From NCBI RefSeq assembly GCF_013141425.1, contig NZ_JABFRA010000095.1, positions 1 through 42,896 of the forward strand: DNA of 42,896 nucleotides. Reading direction: 5' to 3'. A program made the position numbers and the translations under genes. Under the pieces are notes generated by a model. The model had not been told where the DNA came from. It did no database searches and saw nothing but the letters and a program-made list of their open reading frames with translations. This document shows positions 275-27,615 of this stretch, piece after piece (positions within the stretch are counted from its first letter, which is position 1; every line of letters begins with the position of its first letter). The DNA is from Methylotenera sp. (GTDB lineage Bacteria > Pseudomonadota > Gammaproteobacteria > Burkholderiales > Methylophilaceae).

Positions 275-1057
275 ATGACTAAATTTTTTATTGCCCCACA
301 GCACCAGCAGCTATTGGTTTTTAATCAGGTAGCCGATTTTGATTCAATATGGAATCATAAAGTGAACTGGTTTGAAGAGCCAAATGTGCGACGTGGCGGC
401 TGGAGTGGGGTAGGGCGAATCGAACTTAAGCAGCCCGATGGCAGCGTACTGGGGGCATTTTTAAAGAAACAAGAAAATCACCAGCATAAATCTTGGCGAC
501 ATCCGATTCATGGCATACCAACATTTGAACGTGAATTCACCATGATGCAATATTTGCGGGCGCATCAGGTGAATGCACCAGAAGTGATGTTTTTTGGGCG
601 AAATCCTAATGGTGATTTTAAAACAACGCTGCTAACAAAAGAGTTGGTTGGATTCGTTTCATTAGACGAATTGACCGAACAACTGTTTGAACAAGCGCGA
701 CCTGTATTGCATCGGCAAAATATATTGTTAAAGGCAGTGGCGACTTATGCGCGACAATTGCACGCGGCTAGTGTGCAACATCGTTCGTTTTATCCAAAAC
801 ATTTATTTGTGAATATGAGCGATGCTACGACGCCACAAGTGGCGGCCATTGATTTAGAAAAATCACGCATCAATCCATTTTTAATATTACGCATCTTGAT
901 GGATTTATCAGCGTTGAACCGACATGCAGCGCATTGGAGTAAAACACGCCGCATGTATTTTTTACTACATTACTTGAATCTGCGGCGTTTAACGCCGTAT
1001 GCAAAATGGCTATGTCGGCGAATTGTTAAACGTTCGAGTCGAGCAAAGCATAAGTAA
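275..1057 (+). CDS. InaA-family lipopolysaccharide kinase-like protein
   Basis: A 260-residue member of the WaaP/InaA kinase-fold family, whose characterised members phosphorylate heptose in the LPS inner core on the cytoplasmic side. Visible motifs are a glycine-rich segment RGGWSGVG (40-47), a candidate ATP-binding lysine in FLKKQEN, a catalytic-loop region HRSFYPKHLF (169-178) and a metal-binding DLEK (193-196). The family's best-studied member, WaaP, has HRD in the catalytic loop; here the Asp position appears to be Ser171, so activity is uncertain. The C-terminus is strongly basic, consistent with membrane or LPS association. It is the first gene of a plus-strand cassette followed by a methyltransferase, a tandem kinase and a carbamoyltransferase. 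The family call is firm; the substrate is inferred from context. Confidence 0.8.
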   Translation: MTKFFIAPQHQQLLVFNQVADFDSIWNHKVNWFEEPNVRRGGWSGVGRIELKQPDGSVLGAFLKKQENHQHKSWRHPIHGIPTFEREFTMMQYLRAHQVNAPEVMFFGRNPNGDFKTTLLTKELVGFVSLDELTEQLFEQARPVLHRQNILLKAVATYARQLHAASVQHRSFYPKHLFVNMSDATTPQVAAIDLEKSRINPFLILRILMDLSALNRHAAHWSKTRRMYFLLHYLNLRRLTPYAKWLCRRIVKRSSRAKHK

Positions 1058-1104
1058 CAGTTATAATAACGAATTATTAATTACGATTTTCAAGGTGTTC
1101 TGCA

Positions 1105-1785
1105 ATGACAAAGCCTAAAGAAGCCCCAATTAAACTTGAGTTTTCGGATAAATATACCCGAGAGCATTCACAGCAATATTTTGAAAAACATCAAGATGGC
1201 TTGATGCGTAAACTTTCACATTGGCGTGATGTACAGCTAGCACGCAAGGCCCTGAAAATTGCAGGAAATCCACAGCAAGTACTTGATTTACCCTGTGGGG
1301 CAGGCCGTTTTTGGCCGCTGTTGGCAGAGAGCCCAACGCGTAAAATTATAGGAGCAGACAATTCTGCCGATATGGTTTCGATAGCTACAGAACATTGTCC
1401 AAAAGAAATTGCCGCTCAATTCACCGCTATCCAGACCTCGGCCTTTGCCATCGATTTGCCTGACGATGCAGTAGATAATATATTCAGCATGCGATTGATG
1501 CATCACATCGGACAGTCTGAGCATCGTGTCGCCATGTTAAAAGAATTCCACCGTGTGACACGTGATACCGTAATTTTATCGCTTTGGGTGGATGGTAACT
1601 TGAAAGCCTACCAGCGCAAGAAATTAGAAGCTAAACGTAGCAAAAAAGGCGAACAAAACCGCTTTGTGATCCCAGTAGAGCAAATTGAGCGAGACTTTGC
1701 TCAAGCGGGTTTTAAAGTGGTCGATTCGCTGGACTTTATCCCATATTACGCCATGTGGCGTGTCTATGTATTGCGTAAAGTTTAA
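1105..1785 (+). CDS. class I SAM-dependent methyltransferase
   Basis: A 226-residue Rossmann-fold methyltransferase. The SAM-binding motif I is VLDLPCGAGRFW (59-70), followed by an acidic motif II region (IGADNS) and a motif near MRLMHHIG typical of the UbiE/Methyltransf_11 group. There is no transmembrane segment. It lies 47 bases downstream of the InaA-type kinase and 9 bases upstream of the tandem kinase gene, so it is probably co-transcribed. Its place between LPS kinase-like genes suggests a core-sugar or phospho-sugar substrate, but the sequence itself does not identify one; a small-molecule or quinone substrate cannot be excluded. Confidence 0.8.
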   Translation: MTKPKEAPIKLEFSDKYTREHSQQYFEKHQDGLMRKLSHWRDVQLARKALKIAGNPQQVLDLPCGAGRFWPLLAESPTRKIIGADNSADMVSIATEHCPKEIAAQFTAIQTSAFAIDLPDDAVDNIFSMRLMHHIGQSEHRVAMLKEFHRVTRDTVILSLWVDGNLKAYQRKKLEAKRSKKGEQNRFVIPVEQIERDFAQAGFKVVDSLDFIPYYAMWRVYVLRKV

Positions 1786-1794
1786 TTCAAGCAG

Positions 1795-3240
1795 TTGCAA
1801 ATACTTCTAAAAAACGCCGCGCCGATTGAGGTTGAAGCTGTTGTCAGGGTGGTGCCGCAGCAGCGTGAAGTGGTGCGTGGTACTTGGCAAGGGCAATTGG
1901 TCTATGCCAAACAGTTTTCTGGAGCTCGCGCTAAAAAGCACTTAGAACGTGATGTAGCGGGTGTTCAGCAACTTCTGAATGCTAGCATCCCTACACCTGC
2001 TTTGCTTTTCCAAGGCGATGCCGTTGCACCTAACTCTTACGTGGCAATTTATGCCGCCATCACTCCCGCGCAAAATGCTGAAGAAGCTTATGCACAATTG
2101 CCTAAAGACCAGCGGTTGTTGTTGATGCGGCAATTAGTGCAAGCCTTAGCTTTGCATCACAAAGCAGGCTTAATTCAAACGGATTTGTATTTTAAAAACT
2201 TCCTACTCGAAACTGATCAAACAACTGGCGCGTCCAGTTTATACACGCTCGATGGAGATGGCATTCGTCTCTTATCGACATTCTTTAAAAACCGCCAGCA
2301 ACGGCAGAATCTTGCTACTTTGTTTTCAAAAATGGATGTGCTGGATGAGGACGATTGGCTGCAATATTTGTATCAAGATTACTGCGATGCGATGGGAATG
2401 TCCTTTTCAGTTGAGGGCATGACAAACCTCTGGTTGGCAACGCAAAAAATTCGTCAGCAAGTGGCAAGTGGCTATGCGGATAAAAAAGTGTTTAGAACTT
2501 GTACAGATGTAAAAGTCACGCAGAATTTTAGGTATTTTTCTGCTTTAGCCAGTGCCTTTTCAGAGGATGAAACTACTCTGCTAAATTTGGACATTTTTTT
2601 AGCTAATGCTGCGGGCAATATAAAAAATGGTAACACCTGCACCATTGCTACGGCGCTAATTGCTAATCGGCAAGTGGTGGTGAAGCGCTACAATATTAAA
2701 AGCTTTCTACATGGTTTCGGCCGTGCTTTTCGCAAGAGTCGCGCGGCCATTTCCTGGGCTAATGCGCATCGCCTGAATATTTTAAATATCGCGACCCCTG
2801 CGCCACTCGCGTTGGTAGAAGAGCGTTTTGGTTGGTTGCGTCAACGCGCATATTTCGTGAGTGCATTTTTAGATGCGCCTGACGTGGCACAGTATTTTGC
2901 AGAAAAACATTCAATTGAAACAAAACAAGCAGTGGCCTATGAAGTGGCAAGCTTATTTTATCGATTAAGTTTGCTTAAAATTTCACATGGCGATTGTAAG
3001 GCGAGTAACCTTAAAATTAAAGTCGGCAAACCTGTGTTGCTTGATCTGGATGCCATGCAAGCCGATCCATGGTTTTTTCAACAAAAACATATTAAAGATT
3101 TAAAGCGCTTTATGCGAAATTGGCAGCAGGATGCGGAAACCACCTTGCTGTTTAAGCAAGCTTTTAGAGCCGCTTATCATGAGGCAGATGATCCTTGGGT
3201 GATGCCTTTGTTGGTGAGAGCGGGAATTGCGAGTGACTGA
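1795..3240 (+). CDS. tandem two-domain LPS kinase-like protein (WapQ-like)
   Basis: A 481-residue protein that appears to contain two consecutive kinase-fold domains. The first has Lys39 (VYAKQF), a catalytic-loop pattern TDLYFKN with Asp130 and Asn135, and a metal-site LDGDG (Asp153/Asp155). The second has Lys297 (VVVKRYN), HGDCKASN with His398, Asp400 and Asn405, and LLDLDAM (Asp417/Asp419). Both halves keep the D-x4-N spacing. The start is TTG at 1795; no good upstream ATG or GTG is present and the Shine-Dalgarno is weak. Length and position next to a carbamoyltransferase recall, from memory, the accessory kinase WapQ beside WapO in the Pseudomonas aeruginosa core locus. Function is inferred: phosphorylation of core heptoses. 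Confidence 0.75.
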   Translation: MQILLKNAAPIEVEAVVRVVPQQREVVRGTWQGQLVYAKQFSGARAKKHLERDVAGVQQLLNASIPTPALLFQGDAVAPNSYVAIYAAITPAQNAEEAYAQLPKDQRLLLMRQLVQALALHHKAGLIQTDLYFKNFLLETDQTTGASSLYTLDGDGIRLLSTFFKNRQQRQNLATLFSKMDVLDEDDWLQYLYQDYCDAMGMSFSVEGMTNLWLATQKIRQQVASGYADKKVFRTCTDVKVTQNFRYFSALASAFSEDETTLLNLDIFLANAAGNIKNGNTCTIATALIANRQVVVKRYNIKSFLHGFGRAFRKSRAAISWANAHRLNILNIATPAPLALVEERFGWLRQRAYFVSAFLDAPDVAQYFAEKHSIETKQAVAYEVASLFYRLSLLKISHGDCKASNLKIKVGKPVLLDLDAMQADPWFFQQKHIKDLKRFMRNWQQDAETTLLFKQAFRAAYHEADDPWVMPLLVRAGIASD

Positions 3241-3337
3241 TTTGTTAGAAAATAACAACGATTCTTGATAAACCCAGTAAAATAGCAAAAAACTTAAGTA
3301 ACAATACTTACGAAAACAACCTTATGAAAGTACCTAC

Positions 3338-5056
3338 ATGATTGTTTTAGGGTTATCTGGTGCGCTGGGGCATGATGCTTCAGCAGCAATATTGGTCGAT
3401 GGTAAAATTATTGCCGCAGCCGAAGAAGAGCGTTTCATTCGTGATAAACACGCTAAAAATAAATTCCCTTATGAGGCAGCTAAGTTTTGCCTAAAACAAG
3501 CAGGCATCACTGCTGAGCAGGTCGATATTGTTGCGTTTCCGTATGCGGAAATTCCACTCAGCAGCAATGCACGCTGGCACTACGCCAAACGTCATTGGTA
3601 TGCGCCTGATCGTGCGCTGGATGCACTTTTTAACGGCAATCGCCGTTTTAGGCGCAACCGAGACAAGTCACTGAAACTCATGGCCGATTTGGGTTTGAAG
3701 AATGCCAAATTTGTGCCAGTGGAGCATCACTTGGCGCATGCTTCAAGTGCCTATCATTTAAGTGGGTTCAAAGAAAAAACCGCGATTGTTGGCATTGATG
3801 GCAAAGGCGAATACGCCACTACGTTTTTTGGTTACGGTGAAAACGGAAAAATCCATAAAATTAAAGAGTTTTATGACCCCGATTCACTAGGTGGCATGTA
3901 CGGCGCCATTACTGAGTATCTTGGTTTTGAGATGCTTGATGGCGAGTTTAAAGTCATGGGCATGGCGCCTTATGGTGATGCCAGCAAATATAATTTATCA
4001 CGTTTGGTCAGCTTCGAAGATGGTGAATTGAAAGTAAATACCAAGTTGGTTAATGTAGTAGGTTTACGTCGCTACAAAGAAAGTGGCAAGGGCTATTATT
4101 TCACCCCAGAATTAATCGATTGGCTAGGCCCAAAACGCCACGGTGACGAGATTGATGACCCGTATATTCACTATGCCGCATCCGTTCAGCAGTTGCTTGA
4201 AGACCTCGCGCTGAAGATGATTGATTACTACTTGGGCGATATCATCAAAGAAACTGGCCGTATCGCAATGGCGGGTGGTGTGGCGCTGAATGTGAAGTTG
4301 AATCAGCGCATAATAGCCATGCCGCATGTAAAAGAGTTATTCGTGCAGCCTGCTTCAGGTGACAATGGTACCTCGCTTGGCGCTGCGACTTATGCTGCCC
4401 ATTTGGCGGGCGACACCATTGCGAAAATGGAGCATGCTTATTTAGGCCCAGCGTATAGCACAGAAGAATGTATCGCTGCCTGTGAGGCGCATCCAGAAAA
4501 ACCGATTTTCAAGCGCGTAGAAAATGCCGCACAAACGGGTGCGGAACTCTTAGCAAGCGGCAATCCGCTCGCCTGGTTGCAAGGCCGCATGGAGTTTGGC
4601 CCTCGTTCACTCGGCTGTCGCAGCATTTTAGGTGACCCGAGTTATCCTGGCGTGGCTGATCGCATTAATGCACAAATCAAATATCGCGAACGCTGGCGGC
4701 CCTTTTGCCCGAGCCTATTAGACTGGGTTGCACCGGAAATTTTGCAAACCAACCATCCTGCGCCCTACATGACCTTTACTTTTAACGTAGCAGAACAATG
4801 GAAGTCACGTATTCCAGAAGTGGTGCATGAAGATGGCACGGCGCGCGCGCAAGTCGTAACGCGGGAAACCAACCCCCGCTATTATGCATTGATCGAGCAT
4901 TTGGAAACATTGCGTGGCAATCCGGTGGTGTTGAATACGTCACTGAATCGTCGTGGTGAACCTATGATTTGCTCACCAACGGATGCGCTAAACATGTTTT
5001 ACGGTTGTGATTTAGAGTATTTAATGCTGGAAGATATTTTAGTTACAAAAAAATGA
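3338..5056 (+). CDS. carbamoyltransferase, NodU/CmcH family
   Basis: A full-length 572-residue O-carbamoyltransferase. The N-terminal domain opens with VLGLSGALGHDASAAI and EEERF, typical of the NodU/TobZ/CmcH fold; VEHHLAHASSAYH (from His130, His131 and His134) is the conserved metal-binding histidine cluster; GIDGKGEYATT follows. The C-terminal domain has GRMEFGPRSLGCRSILGDP and the YRERWRPFCPS block, the conserved C-terminal module of the family. These enzymes move the carbamoyl group from carbamoyl phosphate to a hydroxyl of a sugar or natural product. In this setting, 97 bases after the tandem kinase, LPS core heptose is the likely acceptor (compare WapO of P. aeruginosa). carAB, which makes carbamoyl phosphate, lies 28 kb away in the same window. 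The terminator at 5097 closes the cassette. Confidence 0.88.
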   Translation: MIVLGLSGALGHDASAAILVDGKIIAAAEEERFIRDKHAKNKFPYEAAKFCLKQAGITAEQVDIVAFPYAEIPLSSNARWHYAKRHWYAPDRALDALFNGNRRFRRNRDKSLKLMADLGLKNAKFVPVEHHLAHASSAYHLSGFKEKTAIVGIDGKGEYATTFFGYGENGKIHKIKEFYDPDSLGGMYGAITEYLGFEMLDGEFKVMGMAPYGDASKYNLSRLVSFEDGELKVNTKLVNVVGLRRYKESGKGYYFTPELIDWLGPKRHGDEIDDPYIHYAASVQQLLEDLALKMIDYYLGDIIKETGRIAMAGGVALNVKLNQRIIAMPHVKELFVQPASGDNGTSLGAATYAAHLAGDTIAKMEHAYLGPAYSTEECIAACEAHPEKPIFKRVENAAQTGAELLASGNPLAWLQGRMEFGPRSLGCRSILGDPSYPGVADRINAQIKYRERWRPFCPSLLDWVAPEILQTNHPAPYMTFTFNVAEQWKSRIPEVVHEDGTARAQVVTRETNPRYYALIEHLETLRGNPVVLNTSLNRRGEPMICSPTDALNMFYGCDLEYLMLEDILVTKK

Positions 5057-18551: not shown

Positions 18552-20450
18552 TTATTGCGTAACTGATTTGTTTTCTTTTTTCTTGAAGAATTTACTTAAG
18601 TCTTGAACAAGCTGCATAAGCGCGGGCTGCTTTGTTTGCAATACTAATTTGCGTGCCTCATTGCTTAGCGCTTCGTCATTGCCTTTGCTGGCTTTCATTA
18701 ACACAAAACTTTTGCCATTCACTGGCTGGGTGATTTTAACGTCATTGTCCACATAGGTTACTTTGTCCCAATCGGAGATGTAGGTATGGCTACGTTTTTC
18801 ACCTGCAAGTAAATTATATCCTGTGGCATAGTCGCTACTTGGGTTAGTAACGCCGAGTAGCGGCATAATGGTAGGTATCACGTCCATGTGACTGGTCATT
18901 TCGTCACTAACGAGAGGCTGGAAGCCAGGTGCATAGATTACCAAGGGCGTGCGAACTTGCGGATCCACAAACGTCGAATTATGTCCCCAAAAGCCATGCT
19001 CCATAAACTCTTCACCATGGTCTCCGATTAAAATAACGATGGTATTGTCGAGCAATTGATGTGTTTTCAGATAATCAAAAATACGTCCATATTGCATGTC
19101 TAAGTGATGCACGGAATTAATGTAGCGATTTTTAATCGGGCTTATTTCGTTGCGTAAGGCAGTTTTACTGAGCGTAGCGTAATTTAAATCGTCTCGGTAA
19201 GGTGTTGCAATCACGCTTTCTGGCGGAAAGTAATAGCGTGCGTGAGGCGACTCAAAAAACATAAAGGTAAAAAATGGTTTCTTTGGATCACGCTTATCAA
19301 TAAAAGAAAGTAAGTTTGTGACGTTATCGCGGTCACTTTCCCAGCCTGATGTTGGTTTCGCGATTTCATGTAAATGATCGCTGGGGACTTTTGAAAAAAT
19401 GGTTTTATCAAATTCTGGATAAGAGAATTTTGCGCTGGTGTACAGACTCATTTGATAGTCCTGCTGTTGCAGCACTTCGATTAAAGCCGCGCCGCGGCGC
19501 TCTTCTAAGAATGGAAACCAGTAGTTGCCGGGTAGGCCCGTGAACATACCGAAAACCCCCATGCGTGTGCCATTTCCCGTGCTGTAATTGCGCGTATAGC
19601 GCGCTGCATTTTTGGCAAATTCCCAAGAATGAGGCATAACTTTTTCATCTAAGGTATCCGCACGCCATGATTCAGAAGTTAACCAGATAATATTGTAAGG
19701 TTTAGCCGGTTTATTAAATTGCAGTGGATTTAGCGGGTAATTTAATTTACCTTTTACTTTTAATTTGGTTTCACGTTGTGTGGTAAACCCTAGTTTTTTG
19801 AAAAATCCCCGCGCGGAAACAGTTTGATAAAAGGGCACGGATTGGGCAACTTCGTTTAGTTGATTGGTGGAATAGCTATCTAGCGCGAAGCCCATGTGGA
19901 CCGAGAGTGTAGCAATTATCGCCGAGGCAGGAAGCCATTTAAACGATAAATTCGGTGTCAATTTTTTAAGATAATAGCGATGCAGTAGCCATAAAATTAA
20001 AGCCTGACTGCTGATAAAGCCGAACACAATGAGTGCAAAGCCAATATCAGAGGCGCTACTGCCCCCTAATGATTCGATACCGCCAGGCGTAATGACTAAA
20101 TTAAGGATGAAGCCATTAAAAAACATGCCATATAGCGAAAATAATTTCGCATTGGCATACATTAAAAGCGTGGTAATGCCACCCGTTAGCACGGCGGCAA
20201 TGTAGGTTGGGCGAACAGAGTTGGGGCGAATGCGCTGACTAATGAATCGAACTAAAGCAGTAATGCCGAGTGCAGGTAATAAGTAATATAGCCCGTAGAG
20301 CAAGGTGGCAATGAGCATAAAACTGATAGGCAACCAGCCACTTTCAATCGTACTGGCAATAGGCAGCGACTCAGACACTAGCCATAAAACAATCAGATAG
20401 GTGATGAAAAAATAAGCTTTAAGAGTGGTTTGCATCAAGTTGGCGTTCAT
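18552..20450 (-). CDS. YejM/PbgA-like inner-membrane sulfatase-fold protein
   Basis: A 632-residue protein with about five N-terminal membrane segments (residues 10-205) and a periplasmic alkaline-phosphatase/sulfatase-fold domain from about 250 to 570. The membrane part contains MFFNGFILNLVITPGGIESLGG, closely resembling the DUF3413 region of YejM (PbgA/LapC). The globular part has WLTSESWRADTLD, a threonine at the catalytic position (Thr295 in STGNGTRMG), FESPHARYYFP and ILIGDHGEEFMEHGFWGHN. In enterobacteria YejM controls LPS synthesis by restraining LapB/FtsH degradation of LpxC. Here it lies between nadK and hrcA. A phosphoethanolamine-transferase role is a less likely alternative. It ends in a basic tail. 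Confidence 0.8.
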   Translation of the reverse strand: MNANLMQTTLKAYFFITYLIVLWLVSESLPIASTIESGWLPISFMLIATLLYGLYYLLPALGITALVRFISQRIRPNSVRPTYIAAVLTGGITTLLMYANAKLFSLYGMFFNGFILNLVITPGGIESLGGSSASDIGFALIVFGFISSQALILWLLHRYYLKKLTPNLSFKWLPASAIIATLSVHMGFALDSYSTNQLNEVAQSVPFYQTVSARGFFKKLGFTTQRETKLKVKGKLNYPLNPLQFNKPAKPYNIIWLTSESWRADTLDEKVMPHSWEFAKNAARYTRNYSTGNGTRMGVFGMFTGLPGNYWFPFLEERRGAALIEVLQQQDYQMSLYTSAKFSYPEFDKTIFSKVPSDHLHEIAKPTSGWESDRDNVTNLLSFIDKRDPKKPFFTFMFFESPHARYYFPPESVIATPYRDDLNYATLSKTALRNEISPIKNRYINSVHHLDMQYGRIFDYLKTHQLLDNTIVILIGDHGEEFMEHGFWGHNSTFVDPQVRTPLVIYAPGFQPLVSDEMTSHMDVIPTIMPLLGVTNPSSDYATGYNLLAGEKRSHTYISDWDKVTYVDNDVKITQPVNGKSFVLMKASKGNDEALSNEARKLVLQTKQPALMQLVQDLSKFFKKKENKSVTQ

Positions 20451-23350: not shown

Positions 23351-25609
23351 TTACGTCTTAAAGCTCCGCACTAATTTTCGGATACCTTTTCGGCCAAACT
23401 TTCTTTTAAAGGCTACTTTAAAGTCATATAAATAAAACGGTAGTTTTATTTTAAAAGTGAATTTAACGCCCAAGTGTGCCAAATATAAACCCATCAGGCG
23501 CTCGCGTCCTGCCCAATGTAATTTGTTGCAGATGCGGGCTAAGTCTGAATAGCGGTAGTTAAGGGCCGTTGGATAGGTATAAAAACGGGCGCGCGCAGTA
23601 TCAATCAACGAGAAACTTAATTGTTTGCTCTCTAGTAGTTGCACCAGTACATTTCCGCCAGACAAGTCGCGGAAGAAAACTCCGGTTTTGTGCATGTGAT
23701 GCAGGAATTGTGCTAACTGCGTATAAACTTCCTCAGCACTTAAGGTGGTGTTTTTGTCGCTAAAATAAAACTCTTTATGGCCTAGCGCAAAATGCACAAA
23801 CATCTCACCGACCGAGCAATCCGCTTTTACATAATCGCAAATGTAAAAATTTTGTTTGAGAGTGACGTCATTTTCTTGTTCAAAGAAGGCGACGGGCGCT
23901 GCCGTAGCAACACCGCGCCTGAGCAGCTCTACCGCACCGTTCCAACTGCGCTTGGCCTTGCTGGGTTTAAAGCGATCCAACAACTGTTTGTGTAAATACA
24001 TTTTTACAGGTTGTTTTACCGTAACTTGCTTGTCAGCGTCTCTTGGGTCGGGGAGCGTCCAAATGGCGTTACGAGCATGGCGTAAGGCATTGTTTTTTTG
24101 CGGGCTAATTAATTGGCTAGGGTGCAATTGTTGCGCCAGTTGCTGGGCTTCATCGGCATCCTTTGCCAAAATCAGTCCAAACCAGCTATCCTGTTTGAAC
24201 GGAAAATATTGCTGATTTTTGATGTGCGCATGTATCGCCAAATCTTTCGCTAATGTCAGGTTAGGTTTTGTATTGATAGGTTGATTTTTAGGCCAGCGCA
24301 AGTAAATCGGCGATTCGCTGATAATGTCAGTGGTGGTAGTAATGGCATGGCCATCGCGATGACTGATTTCAGCCTGCTGAATAGCGGCAAGTTCATAAAT
24401 GTCGCTTAAAAAGGCAACTTTGCCGTTAATCGTCCATAAAGCGTGAATTTCAAATTGCTCGGTTTGAAAGTGGTGAACTTCCAAGCCATTGGCTGTAGAA
24501 ATAGCCTTTAAATATTGCGCCCCTTGGATGAGTTTAGCGGTTGTTTTTACCGCGTTAAAACTGGCATGATGCCAAAAATTTTTCAAGGCGCCATCTACAC
24601 ATGCGTAGTGTGTGACGCGTTCTAGACTTGGATATTCAGCATCAGTTAAACCATCATCAATCAGGCCTTCACGGTGGCAAATCAGCGCGCCCCAAAATAC
24701 TTGGTCTAGCGCACCAGAGGCGGCATTCAGCAATAAATAACGTGCGGCATAATCAGCCTGCTTTTGCTCACCATCGGACAGTAGGCGCTCAATGCGGTAT
24801 ATCGCCCAAAATGCAACTGGGGAAATGAAACTTTTGATGCCAAAGTCTGAGGTGATTTTACCTAGCAAACGCGCTTTTTTAATCAGGTTGAATTTTAATC
24901 GGGTGGCCCAACGGTATTTAAATACGCGGTGGTCAAAGCGCTCTGGTTCTGAAACGCGCTCTGAGAATAAATTATTACTGTGAACATCGGGCAATTGGTT
25001 TTTTGCTTTGAGCAGACTCAATAGGCCGATATTATAGATAGGCTCAAAATCTGTTACATTGGGGCCAGCAAGCTCAATGTAACGTTGCTTGACAGTCGCA
25101 TAGGCAATAGCCCAAGCTCGCAAGAAGCAATTCAATGAATAACCCGCCCAGCGTTTACGATTAACAGTAGCGCCAATTTCAATGCGCCTGATATGTGCAC
25201 CAAAACGTTCTAACACTTGCGCTAAGAACGTTTGCCAATTTTCTTGTTCAGCCGCATTCTCCATGTTTTTGGCGCTGTTAAAAGGCTGAATTAAATGTAG
25301 CGTAACGTTTAATTTTTCATCAATTAAGCGCTGTAAAAAACGTGCATTAAAACTCTCTAAATCGCCGTAGGTAAAATCTAAGCGCACCTGCTTGATGCCT
25401 AATTGCTGCAGTTGTGCAATGACATAATTATCCATAAGTGCATCGGCGGCAGAAGCAACACACACGCCAACATAATCATGCGGAATGTGGTGGTTTGCAG
25501 GCGGTAAGTGCCCTTGCTTGATGTAAAGTTTGCCAGTGAAAATATAAGCCAAACCCTTGCAGATAATTGGCCAAGTAAGCAAGCTAGGCTGTTTTGTGCG
25601 ATGCGGCAT
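23351..25609 (-). CDS. fusion: glycoside-hydrolase-like barrel + LPS-kinase-like domain
   Basis: A 752-residue protein I do not recognise as a named family. Residues 45 to about 300 resemble a (beta/alpha)8 glycoside hydrolase of clan A: LGIKQVRLDFTYGDLE, then RRIEIGATVNRKRWAGYS, then ELAGPNVTDFEP. At the usual Asn-Glu acid/base position the residues are Ala147-Thr148, so hydrolysis seems unlikely. Residues 540-752 look like an LPS kinase: VKMYLHK (candidate ATP lysine), FFRDLSGGNVLVQ with Asp648 and Asn653, and LIDTARARFY with Asp670. The C-terminus is very basic. There is no signal peptide, which fits a cytoplasmic kinase. It starts 8 bases after the LtaS-like gene ends and is surely co-transcribed with it. 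Function unknown; phosphorylation of an LPS or glycan substrate is inference. Confidence 0.65.
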   Translation of the reverse strand: MPHRTKQPSLLTWPIICKGLAYIFTGKLYIKQGHLPPANHHIPHDYVGVCVASAADALMDNYVIAQLQQLGIKQVRLDFTYGDLESFNARFLQRLIDEKLNVTLHLIQPFNSAKNMENAAEQENWQTFLAQVLERFGAHIRRIEIGATVNRKRWAGYSLNCFLRAWAIAYATVKQRYIELAGPNVTDFEPIYNIGLLSLLKAKNQLPDVHSNNLFSERVSEPERFDHRVFKYRWATRLKFNLIKKARLLGKITSDFGIKSFISPVAFWAIYRIERLLSDGEQKQADYAARYLLLNAASGALDQVFWGALICHREGLIDDGLTDAEYPSLERVTHYACVDGALKNFWHHASFNAVKTTAKLIQGAQYLKAISTANGLEVHHFQTEQFEIHALWTINGKVAFLSDIYELAAIQQAEISHRDGHAITTTTDIISESPIYLRWPKNQPINTKPNLTLAKDLAIHAHIKNQQYFPFKQDSWFGLILAKDADEAQQLAQQLHPSQLISPQKNNALRHARNAIWTLPDPRDADKQVTVKQPVKMYLHKQLLDRFKPSKAKRSWNGAVELLRRGVATAAPVAFFEQENDVTLKQNFYICDYVKADCSVGEMFVHFALGHKEFYFSDKNTTLSAEEVYTQLAQFLHHMHKTGVFFRDLSGGNVLVQLLESKQLSFSLIDTARARFYTYPTALNYRYSDLARICNKLHWAGRERLMGLYLAHLGVKFTFKIKLPFYLYDFKVAFKRKFGRKGIRKLVRSFKT

Positions 25610-25617
25610 TATAGATT

Positions 25618-27615
25618 TTATGGTAAACGGTAACGCTGTTCGTTATACAACAAATCTGGCAGCAGCACATTTGCGAGCGCGCGTTTCTCTAATTCTTTAG
25701 CGTTGGCGGGTGGTGCTACCTCGTTCAAATGTTTGGTGTTAGCATCATACAACGCGTGCGCAGCAGCCTTGCCAGAGCGCAATACCACAACTTGCTTACC
25801 TGATGCGCTTTCCTCCATCCAACCATAGTTGTCGTTGTATTGCATCATGGCGCGGCCATGAGTATCTGGCGCTAGGTTCGATAAATCACGCCCTGTCATG
25901 GGGGTTTGCCCCTGTATGCCCATCAGCGATAGTAGGGTTACTGGCAAGTCAATTTGGCTGGCAACACCAGTAAAGCGTTGCGGCTGAATGTCGGCACCTA
26001 AAATAAGCCCTGGAATGTGAAAGCGCTCAATCGGAACCAATGTGTCGCCACGTACTCGAATATCGTGGTCGGCTACAATTAAAAATACCGTATCTTTCCA
26101 GTAAGGGCTTTGCTGCGCCTTTTTAAAGAATTCGCCAATCGCATAATCGGCGTACTTTACTGCGTTGTTGTCCGTTGCCTTGGGCTGTTCGTATAGCTCA
26201 ATTCTGCCATCAGGAAACTCAAATGGTGCATGATTAGAGGATGAGAACGCCAAGGTGAAAAATGGCTTGCCCGCTTGATGGTGGGTGAGTAATTGTTCAT
26301 GCGTTTTGTTGAGTAAATCTTCGTCCGAAGCACCCCAGCTGCCGACAAACACTGGATTTTTATAATCTTTCTGATCGACTATATTTTGAAAGCCGTTGCC
26401 GGTAAAAAAGCCACGCATATTGTCAAAATGCGATTCGCCGCCGTAGATAAATTCAGTGGTGTAGCCTTGTTTTTCCAGTAGCGCAGCTAAAGTGAAAAAG
26501 TTCTTTTGTGACTTTGATAGTTTGACTGTGCTATCCGCCGGTGTCGGCTGAAAGCCCGTTGTGACCGCTTCAATGCCACGTACCGAGCGCGTGCCAGTTG
26601 CATAAAGTTGCTCAAACCAAATGCCTTGTTCTTTCAGCTTTTCAATATTGGGTGTAACAGGCGTACCGCCTAGCGATTGTACAAAGGTCGCCCCCAGACT
26701 TTCTTGCAGAATAATCACTAGATTTAGCGGCTTTTCACGTACGCGGCTTGATTTTAGAGTGGAGAGGGTCGGAATGTCGGACTCTGTAGCCCCCGTTATT
26801 TTTAAAATTTCTTCACGGGGCATTTTGCCGTAAATCTCACTTGATTTAGTTTCTTTGAGTAGATTGTAAGTGGCGTAAAGAACTGAATAGCCGGAGTTTA
26901 GTACAAGACTGTTGACCATGCTATCGGCGGTAATGGCGAACAAGGCAGGGTTTGCCGGCCGATGGCCGATGGTAGAACGTATGCCAAAAGCGATTAAAAT
27001 AAAAATCAGCGGCCAAGTAATGAGTGTTTTTTTGACTGACCAAGCTGATTTAGCCTCAAGCCAAGGCTTCATCAAGCGGTGCATGGCAACATGCGTTAAT
27101 ACTATAAAAATCAGCGCCGCAAAAATATGGATGCGAAAACCAACCCACAGCATGCTGGCAACTTCATGCGGATATTTAAGATATTCCACAAAAATACGAT
27201 TTGGGCGAACATCGTATTCTGCAATAAATCCGGGTGTAGCAACTTCTAAAAAAACCAGTAATACGATGGCCACTGTCACCCAAGCATAAGTAAACCATTG
27301 CCAGCCGCGCCAGCACTTGGCTAGGCTAAAAATGGGGGCTAGTAAAACGGGAATCAGGCCTAATAAACAGAGCTGAATAATATCAACACGTACACCTTGC
27401 AAAAACAGCGCGGTCAGTTGGCCTGTTGCCAGTACGCGGTCATATTTCCACAAAACTAAGCCAAAACGCGAGGCCGATAACACCACTAAAGCAATGATAA
27501 ACATCACCACCAATGGCGCGTAAGCGTCAAATTTTCCTGCGAATTTCCAGAGTTTAGCGAGTGGATTTTTGCTGGCAGAATGATTAATTGCTGATTGCGT
27601 GTGTAAGTTAGCCAT
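25618..27615 (-). CDS. LtaS-like sulfatase-fold phosphotransferase
   Basis: A 665-residue protein with about five N-terminal membrane segments (30-240) and a periplasmic sulfatase-fold domain (about 295-620). The domain shows LVIILQESLGATFVQSLGG, a likely catalytic threonine in ATGTRSVRGIEAV (Thr340 or Thr342), FIYGGESHFDNMRGFF, FSSSNHAPFEFP and VADHDIR (Asp516, His517). This pattern matches the lipoteichoic acid synthase/OpgB group, which transfers phosphoglycerol from phosphatidylglycerol. Gram-negative bacteria lack lipoteichoic acid, so the acceptor is more likely a periplasmic glucan or LPS. A TATAAT box lies 26-31 bases upstream of the ATG. It is followed directly by the barrel-kinase fusion gene. 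Confidence 0.8.
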   Translation of the reverse strand: MANLHTQSAINHSASKNPLAKLWKFAGKFDAYAPLVVMFIIALVVLSASRFGLVLWKYDRVLATGQLTALFLQGVRVDIIQLCLLGLIPVLLAPIFSLAKCWRGWQWFTYAWVTVAIVLLVFLEVATPGFIAEYDVRPNRIFVEYLKYPHEVASMLWVGFRIHIFAALIFIVLTHVAMHRLMKPWLEAKSAWSVKKTLITWPLIFILIAFGIRSTIGHRPANPALFAITADSMVNSLVLNSGYSVLYATYNLLKETKSSEIYGKMPREEILKITGATESDIPTLSTLKSSRVREKPLNLVIILQESLGATFVQSLGGTPVTPNIEKLKEQGIWFEQLYATGTRSVRGIEAVTTGFQPTPADSTVKLSKSQKNFFTLAALLEKQGYTTEFIYGGESHFDNMRGFFTGNGFQNIVDQKDYKNPVFVGSWGASDEDLLNKTHEQLLTHHQAGKPFFTLAFSSSNHAPFEFPDGRIELYEQPKATDNNAVKYADYAIGEFFKKAQQSPYWKDTVFLIVADHDIRVRGDTLVPIERFHIPGLILGADIQPQRFTGVASQIDLPVTLLSLMGIQGQTPMTGRDLSNLAPDTHGRAMMQYNDNYGWMEESASGKQVVVLRSGKAAAHALYDANTKHLNEVAPPANAKELEKRALANVLLPDLLYNEQRYRLP

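Follow-up and report, generated by a model that had tools for sequence, protein, structure and literature searches.

The window, which is the whole 42,896-nucleotide stretch of DNA analyzed here, comes from a 2.48 Mb genome close to Methylotenera. On its minus strand, an open reading frame with an ATG start runs from 25609 to 23351 and encodes a barrel-kinase fusion protein of 752 residues (coding sequence 23351..25609, delimited by the reading frame and by full-length orthologues). The gene for a 665-residue LtaS-like (PF00884) phosphotransferase-type protein (25618..27615, minus strand) lies 8 nt upstream on the same strand and is its partner by synteny and co-occurrence. In a search of genome contigs, the best named relatives of the fusion were Methylotenera MAGs, with at most 78% identity across nearly the whole protein.

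All parts of the fusion are read from the minus strand. Residues 37–348 (24566..25501) form a predicted GH39-like (β/α)8 barrel that probably lacks both catalytic glutamates, as judged from the AlphaFold2 model, VIA-align and invariant residues, and residues 349–440 (24290..24565) add the last barrel helix and a β-sandwich, aligned jointly with 5jvk and PslG. In the structure models, a linker and small strands (residues 441–495; 24125..24289) precede the Kdo/WaaP-type kinase domain (residues 496–715; 23465..24124), which was assigned by Pfam, structural match and alignment and in which K532, D648, N653 and D670 are invariant. The C-terminal tail (residues 716–752; 23354..23464) is basic and helical, with a net charge of +11 according to the model and a charge count, and may contact the membrane; by hydropathy, no 19-residue stretch of the protein resembles a membrane span (maximum Kyte-Doolittle 1.34).

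Elsewhere in the window, a Kdo-type kinase, a methyltransferase, a two-kinase protein and a carbamoyltransferase stand in a row at 275–5056, which resembles PA5005–PA5008, the inner-core phosphorylation and carbamoylation genes of Pseudomonas aeruginosa (excerpt of PMC8005017). A single protein of 481 residues at 1795–3240 has two tandem Kdo/WaaP kinase matches. Between a HAD gene and waaF, the segment 8677–11976 encodes a membrane protein of unclear family, a hexapeptide-type transferase and a WbsX-type protein; a relative (L092) has one lone 227-residue ORF without a Pfam match at this place, so the segment looks like a variable insert. A second PF00884 protein is encoded at 18552–20450, and its best NCBIfam match is the LPS regulator YejM/LapC, at 158.5 against 825 bits and thus far under the cut-off.

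Fold and kinship of the two halves

The first-pass annotation had proposed that a clan-A glycoside-hydrolase-like barrel and an LPS-kinase-like domain share one chain, and AlphaFold2, Foldseek and structural comparison all support this. The AlphaFold2 model, built on a 19-sequence alignment, has a mean pLDDT of 82.7 and a pTM of 0.84. It predicts the barrel on which the proposal had been staked, with eight strands in order at 47–51, 74–79, 101–106, 142–145, 179–185, 209–212, 260–266 and 303–308, and the predicted model has the GH39-type fold of a (β/α)8 barrel with a β-sandwich.

The top structural match of the barrel was 5jvk, a Bacteroides GH39 entry titled family 39 glycoside hydrolase in the PDB (Z 31.1, rmsd 2.8 Å, 349 residues), and the second was PslG of Pseudomonas aeruginosa (Z 28.3), a GH39 member; the following row reached only 23.3. 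Both share barrel and β-sandwich with the fusion over model residues 34–440, at 16–17% identity. Classic GH39 β-xylosidases, at Z 20.8–22.0, ranked alongside GH30 and GH51 rows; what the barrel resembles is therefore the 5jvk/PslG branch, not GH39 at large. Foldseek concurs, with PslG at E 6.2e-14 for the barrel and WaaP 6dfl at E 6.0e-7 for the other half.

At the sequence level, a scan of 25 barrel halves brought up no Pfam GH family at E ≤ 1; six weak families passed this threshold, among them Amidohydro_2 with 0.0072 in a single member. The GH39 Pfam model PF01229 had no match in these halves and none in the genome at E ≤ 1. A PDB sequence search with the single fusion protein returned, among the matches listed, kinases only (best E 0.41). 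In profile searches PslG reached just E 0.027–0.047, the lower value with a profile of the barrel, which leaves the predicted fold as the main support for assigning the barrel to GH39.

The kinase half matches PF06293 (Kdo/WaaP) over residues 513–692 at 28.9 bits against a cut-off of 21.3, and was modelled alone with a pLDDT of 84.2. Structurally, WaaP 6dfl (Z 15.6, rmsd 4.5 Å, 229 residues) is tied with PRPK (15.2), and the profile match to 6dfl has E 3.6e-6. Asp648, Asn653 and Asp670, said to be intact when the gene was first annotated, are indeed present in the window protein; together with K532 they are invariant in all 68 distinct full-length proteins, and the three were also invariant in an earlier alignment of 19 (19/19). 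The fusion thus resembles WaaP/RfaP and KdkA in kinase fold, catalytic residues and a Pfam score above the cut-off, but differs from them in its ∼440-residue barrel module and in lying far under the NCBIfam equivalog cut-offs for RfaP/WaaP (21.6 vs 170 bits) and KdkA (19.1 vs 142 bits). The genome encodes a separate canonical heptose(I) kinase RfaP elsewhere (289.8 vs 170 bits), along with further Kdo-type kinases.

Catalytic positions and conserved face of the barrel

We aligned 88 related ORFs, 78 full-length and 10 barrel-only. Eleven of the 78 were exact duplicates, which left 67 and, with the window protein, 68 distinct full-length proteins. The alignment represents 51 of the 52 other fusion-bearing Methylophilaceae genomes; L029 (cut by a contig end) and the protein of G073 (contig end) were left out. 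The fusion is a conserved family with orthologues in other genomes.

Residues 144–151 (25157..25180) read EIGATVNR (E144-I-G-A-T148-V-N-R) in place of EIWNEPN, with Thr148 at the predicted acid/base position according to hhalign and the alignment. The claim that this threonine replaces the catalytic Glu of an expected EIGNEP held well beyond the window: position 148 is Thr in 68/68 proteins, down to 32% identity, and the substitution is thus a family trait. The acid/base Glu of the GH39 NE motif after strand 4 is absent from every one of them, so that the intact NE in orthologues that would have spoken for simple decay occurs in 0/68. Residue 147 varies among S, N, T and A, and 25/68 proteins still have the Asn of the former NE motif there. 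Genomes yielded three GH39-type proteins whose WNEPN motif is intact, and hhalign against these references placed Thr148 opposite the NEP Glu without gaps (probability 68%, E 4.7e-5).

The nucleophile is mapped less firmly. The key residues of PslG are E165 and E276 (excerpt of PMC9075953), and the Val265 codon (24815..24817) was mapped to the GH39 nucleophile position, PslG E276, from the HMMER and family alignments. In the HMMER alignment, which is weak (overall E 0.027; stretch i-Evalue 17), Val265 stands opposite the Glu of PslG STEWGW, which we infer to be E276 by counting along the chain. Position 265 is non-acidic in 68/68 proteins (V 35, A 11, S 10, C 6, Y 2, and I, T, N and H 1 each), so the Glu that would act as nucleophile where strand 7 ends is missing at this weakly mapped position. 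The hhalign alignment with the GH39-type proteins slips at strand 7 and leaves the stretch around 265 unaligned; the Val265 mapping hence rests on the weak HMMER alignment and on the lack of an invariant acid there. Across the 68 proteins, residues 240–312 contain no invariant acidic residue, the nearest being D286 (61/68, in a helix), and beyond D226, as far as strand 8 extends, there is no invariant Asp or Glu. Both catalytic acids of the barrel have probably been lost, with the acid/base mapping the firmer of the two; PslG has E165 and E276, whereas the fusion has Thr148 and Val265 at the aligned positions, plus a fused kinase.

Conservation is as strong in the barrel as in the kinase, and the invariant barrel residues cluster on the side with which such barrels bind sugar. 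In the 68-row alignment, 36/312 barrel residues are invariant versus 20/220 in the kinase, and within the barrel 23/124 fall in β-to-α loops versus 13/191 elsewhere (p 0.0014, with sites non-independent). Both halves have low dN/dS, 0.03–0.10 in those pairs that yielded an estimate (7 of 10 for either half); most dS values approach saturation. Invariant arginines in the β-to-α loops (Arg151, Arg218, Arg272, Arg275 and Arg313) suggest an anionic pocket ligand, and the invariant acids of the barrel include D187, E189, E217, E223 and D226, which could support a chemistry of another kind. Decay of the window copy alone was rejected on the basis of Thr148 in 68/68 and the low dN/dS.

Partner gene, spread and a kinase-less clade

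Forty loci were listed, 38 of which have a barrel ORF (L029 and L068 do not); these include three barrel-only loci and three from outside the family (L027, L028 and L061). With start codons taken as the first possible ones, the LtaS-like gene lies directly upstream of the fusion on the same strand in 27/38 loci, with either an overlap or a gap of no more than 32 nt, and in 27/32 once barrel-only and extra-family loci are set aside. The pair occurs in several different genomic settings.

Among 100 Methylophilaceae genomes, 49 carry both genes, four the fusion only, none the LtaS orthologue only and 47 neither (Fisher p 3e-24, shared ancestry ignored). Here, an LtaS orthologue has at least 50% identity (49 genomes), and rows at 31–45% were set aside as paralogues or remnants. 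Matches of any kind, including kinase-only and barrel-only ones, occur in 72/100 genomes and the fusion itself in 53 (G073 is cut at a contig end). Three of the four fusion-only genomes are 48–78% complete and one is 99% complete. Where both genes are present but apart, they lie on one contig at ∼270 kb (G029) or on different contigs (G002 and G033). The partner matches LtaS-like VP1736 (PDB 3lxq) at E 3.5e-143, as well as lipoteichoic acid synthases/primase; it is kin to LtaS-like/phosphoglycerol transferases, but scores under the equivalog cut-offs of named transferases.

Some other neighbours hint at LPS: the fusion gene of G002 shares 4 nt with a heptosyltransferase I gene, and that of the gammaproteobacterial locus L028 sits next to a carbamoyltransferase fragment with 74% identity to the one encoded in the window. 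Outside Methylophilaceae, the neighbours of the fusion are mixed. Co-occurrence with the heptose pathway was rejected as a clue, since HldE, found in 97 of the 100 Methylophilaceae genomes, is distributed without regard to the fusion. In G077, an LtaS-like remnant lies beside a fusion-tail remnant, between an MFS-type ORF and an MltA-type ORF (L147, G077:C5:143500-147500, about 2379–2609).

The fusion family spans two phyla and is rare and scattered outside Methylophilaceae among the genomes searched. Order-wide, the barrel profile matched 8/300 genomes, none of the eight outside Methylophilaceae, and among 398 genomes drawn from the phylum one fusion-bearing genome fell outside the family (G381), which is also the only one with the fusion in its order (1/54). 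A planctomycete MAG (L027) carries the fusion at 38% identity, and a gammaproteobacterial MAG holds two copies (L028 and L089; 33 and 35%). Horizontal transfer is likely behind the scattered copies, and some of the extra-family copies may be mis-binned contigs. A plasmid collection gave no match to the fusion; a viral fold library gave GH-like and kinase proteins and, among the 50 matches listed, no joined barrel and kinase by name. The 1.9-Mb gammaproteobacterial MAG G762 (L089, L090) has two diverged copies, one of them next to genes for a carbamoyltransferase and for a 2OG-Fe(II) oxygenase.

In genus g13, whose genomes are 1.1–1.4 Mb, the protein stops after the β-sandwich and the kinase is absent in 10/10 (loci L058–L060 and L140–L146; 399–412 residues in the three measured). 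All ten proteins have G146, N150, R151, N184, D187, E189 and R218 replaced; they retain E144, N213, E217, E221, E223 and R290, with T148 kept in nine, and W154, W268, R272, R275, W306 and R313 fall in alignment gaps. The barrel-only locus is the fusion locus of relatives, with an ammonium transporter upstream (L058 and L059) and MltA downstream in L059, as in L062 of genus g15. Their dN/dS of 0.03–0.27 (35 pairs with usable dS) indicates that the barrel-only proteins are still maintained. In a tree rooted on the gammaproteobacterial copies, the clade falls beside the g15 fusions (support 0.853, on a long branch); in the midpoint-rooted tree it is a lone long branch. None of the ten genomes has an LtaS-like match at E 1e-30, which, with the state of all ten proteins, indicates that loss of the kinase went along with loss of the partner gene and of some pocket residues. 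This joint loss is one event in one clade.

Possible function and precedents

The description of the fusion as a new architecture stands in part. We found no account of a GH39/WaaP-type fusion in the literature searched, which lay largely outside the subscription journals, and the joining of a glycosidase-type barrel to a sugar kinase, whether fused or linked, is already known from TreS-maltokinase (excerpt of PMC2885305). By description, the present protein is set apart from that precedent by a GH39-like barrel that probably lacks its catalytic pair and by a WaaP-type kinase. TreS-maltokinase combines an active GH13 barrel with an APH-like kinase of another family and acts on a soluble disaccharide. 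Dead glycosidase folds that serve as sugar-binding devices are also known, but in the literature searched none turned up that shares a chain with an LPS-type kinase.

Because the fusion keeps company with an envelope phosphate-transfer gene, we suggest a dead fold that holds a glycan for its kinase. The fusion would be a cytoplasmic and probably membrane-associated glycan kinase, whose GH39-derived barrel, both catalytic glutamates presumably lost, keeps a conserved Arg- and Glu-rich pocket for an anionic membrane-linked saccharide. The WaaP-like kinase in the same chain would phosphorylate one sugar of the bound glycan, after which the LtaS-like enzyme might modify the same glycan on the periplasmic side with a phosphoglycerol- or phosphoethanolamine-type group. 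The computed basis for this proposal comprises the fold, the fusion, the family-wide change at the catalytic positions, the conserved pocket face, the joint loss and the coupling to the ltaS-like gene. Taken whole, the idea that a non-hydrolytic barrel keeps an anionic, membrane-linked glycan in place for the kinase of its own chain, and that the LtaS-like enzyme acts on this glycan outside, has in our view an even chance of being right; the separate canonical RfaP of the genome lowered this estimate slightly.

Both the kinase family and the neighbours seen in G002 and L028 make the LPS core the leading candidate for the glycan, at a part different from the one normally phosphorylated by WaaP. 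The WaaP target in the core is HepI, and CptA, a phosphoethanolamine transferase, decorates the core as well (excerpt of PMC3526765), and the Pseudomonas core cluster contains kinases and a carbamoyltransferase (excerpt of PMC8005017). PslG, the structural relative of the barrel, likewise belongs to a polysaccharide pathway and acts at the inner membrane (excerpt of PMC9075953). An LPS role is not forced, however, since the genome has other Kdo-type kinases and the separate canonical RfaP, so that at least the site normally used by WaaP already has its kinase, and the presence of the heptose pathway with or without the fusion counts against the LPS-core candidate.

The coupling to the LtaS-like protein points to envelope glycans, and the sugar-binding face is richer in invariants than the kinase overall; both observations argue against a barrel that is a scaffold or regulatory domain, for example a soluble-sugar sensor, with a free sugar, a lipid or a protein as the kinase substrate. 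That explanation draws on a kinase half equally near PRPK and WaaP and far under the RfaP and KdkA equivalog cut-offs, in a genome that already has a canonical RfaP, and we consider it rather unlikely, if a serious competitor. The barrel might also still be an enzyme, one that uses other catalytic residues of the same face (e.g. among D187, E189, E217, E223 and D226) and cuts, transfers or isomerizes a sugar, the product of which the kinase phosphorylates, as maltokinase follows trehalose synthase. Several invariant acidic residues do lie in the β-to-α loops, and TreS-maltokinase fusions join a barrel enzyme and a kinase for consecutive steps, but both mapped canonical positions are non-acidic in 68/68 proteins, invariant Asp or Glu is lacking from D226 to the end of strand 8, and the 25 barrel halves matched no Pfam GH family at E ≤ 1, so we regard a new enzyme as improbable. 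A decaying relic of a fused hydrolase would explain the lost catalytic residues and is nevertheless barely credible given the low dN/dS, the 36 invariant barrel residues in 68 proteins down to 32% identity and the retention of the fusion in two phyla.

Returning to the glycan-holding barrel, we tentatively propose, with doubt slightly outweighing confidence, that a pseudo-glycosidase cleft, rid of both catalytic acids and refitted with arginines, presents a charged, lipid-linked glycan to a WaaP-type kinase and that, together with the LtaS-like transferase, it constitutes an undescribed two-step pathway of envelope phospho-modification in Methylophilaceae and a few unrelated bacteria. Because kinase, pocket residues and partner gene disappeared jointly in a single clade of small genomes, the idea can be tested directly. 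If true, it would reveal a new way for a kinase to choose its glycan, and the barrel-kinase and its LtaS-like partner would represent an unnoticed envelope-modification pathway in this methylotroph family.
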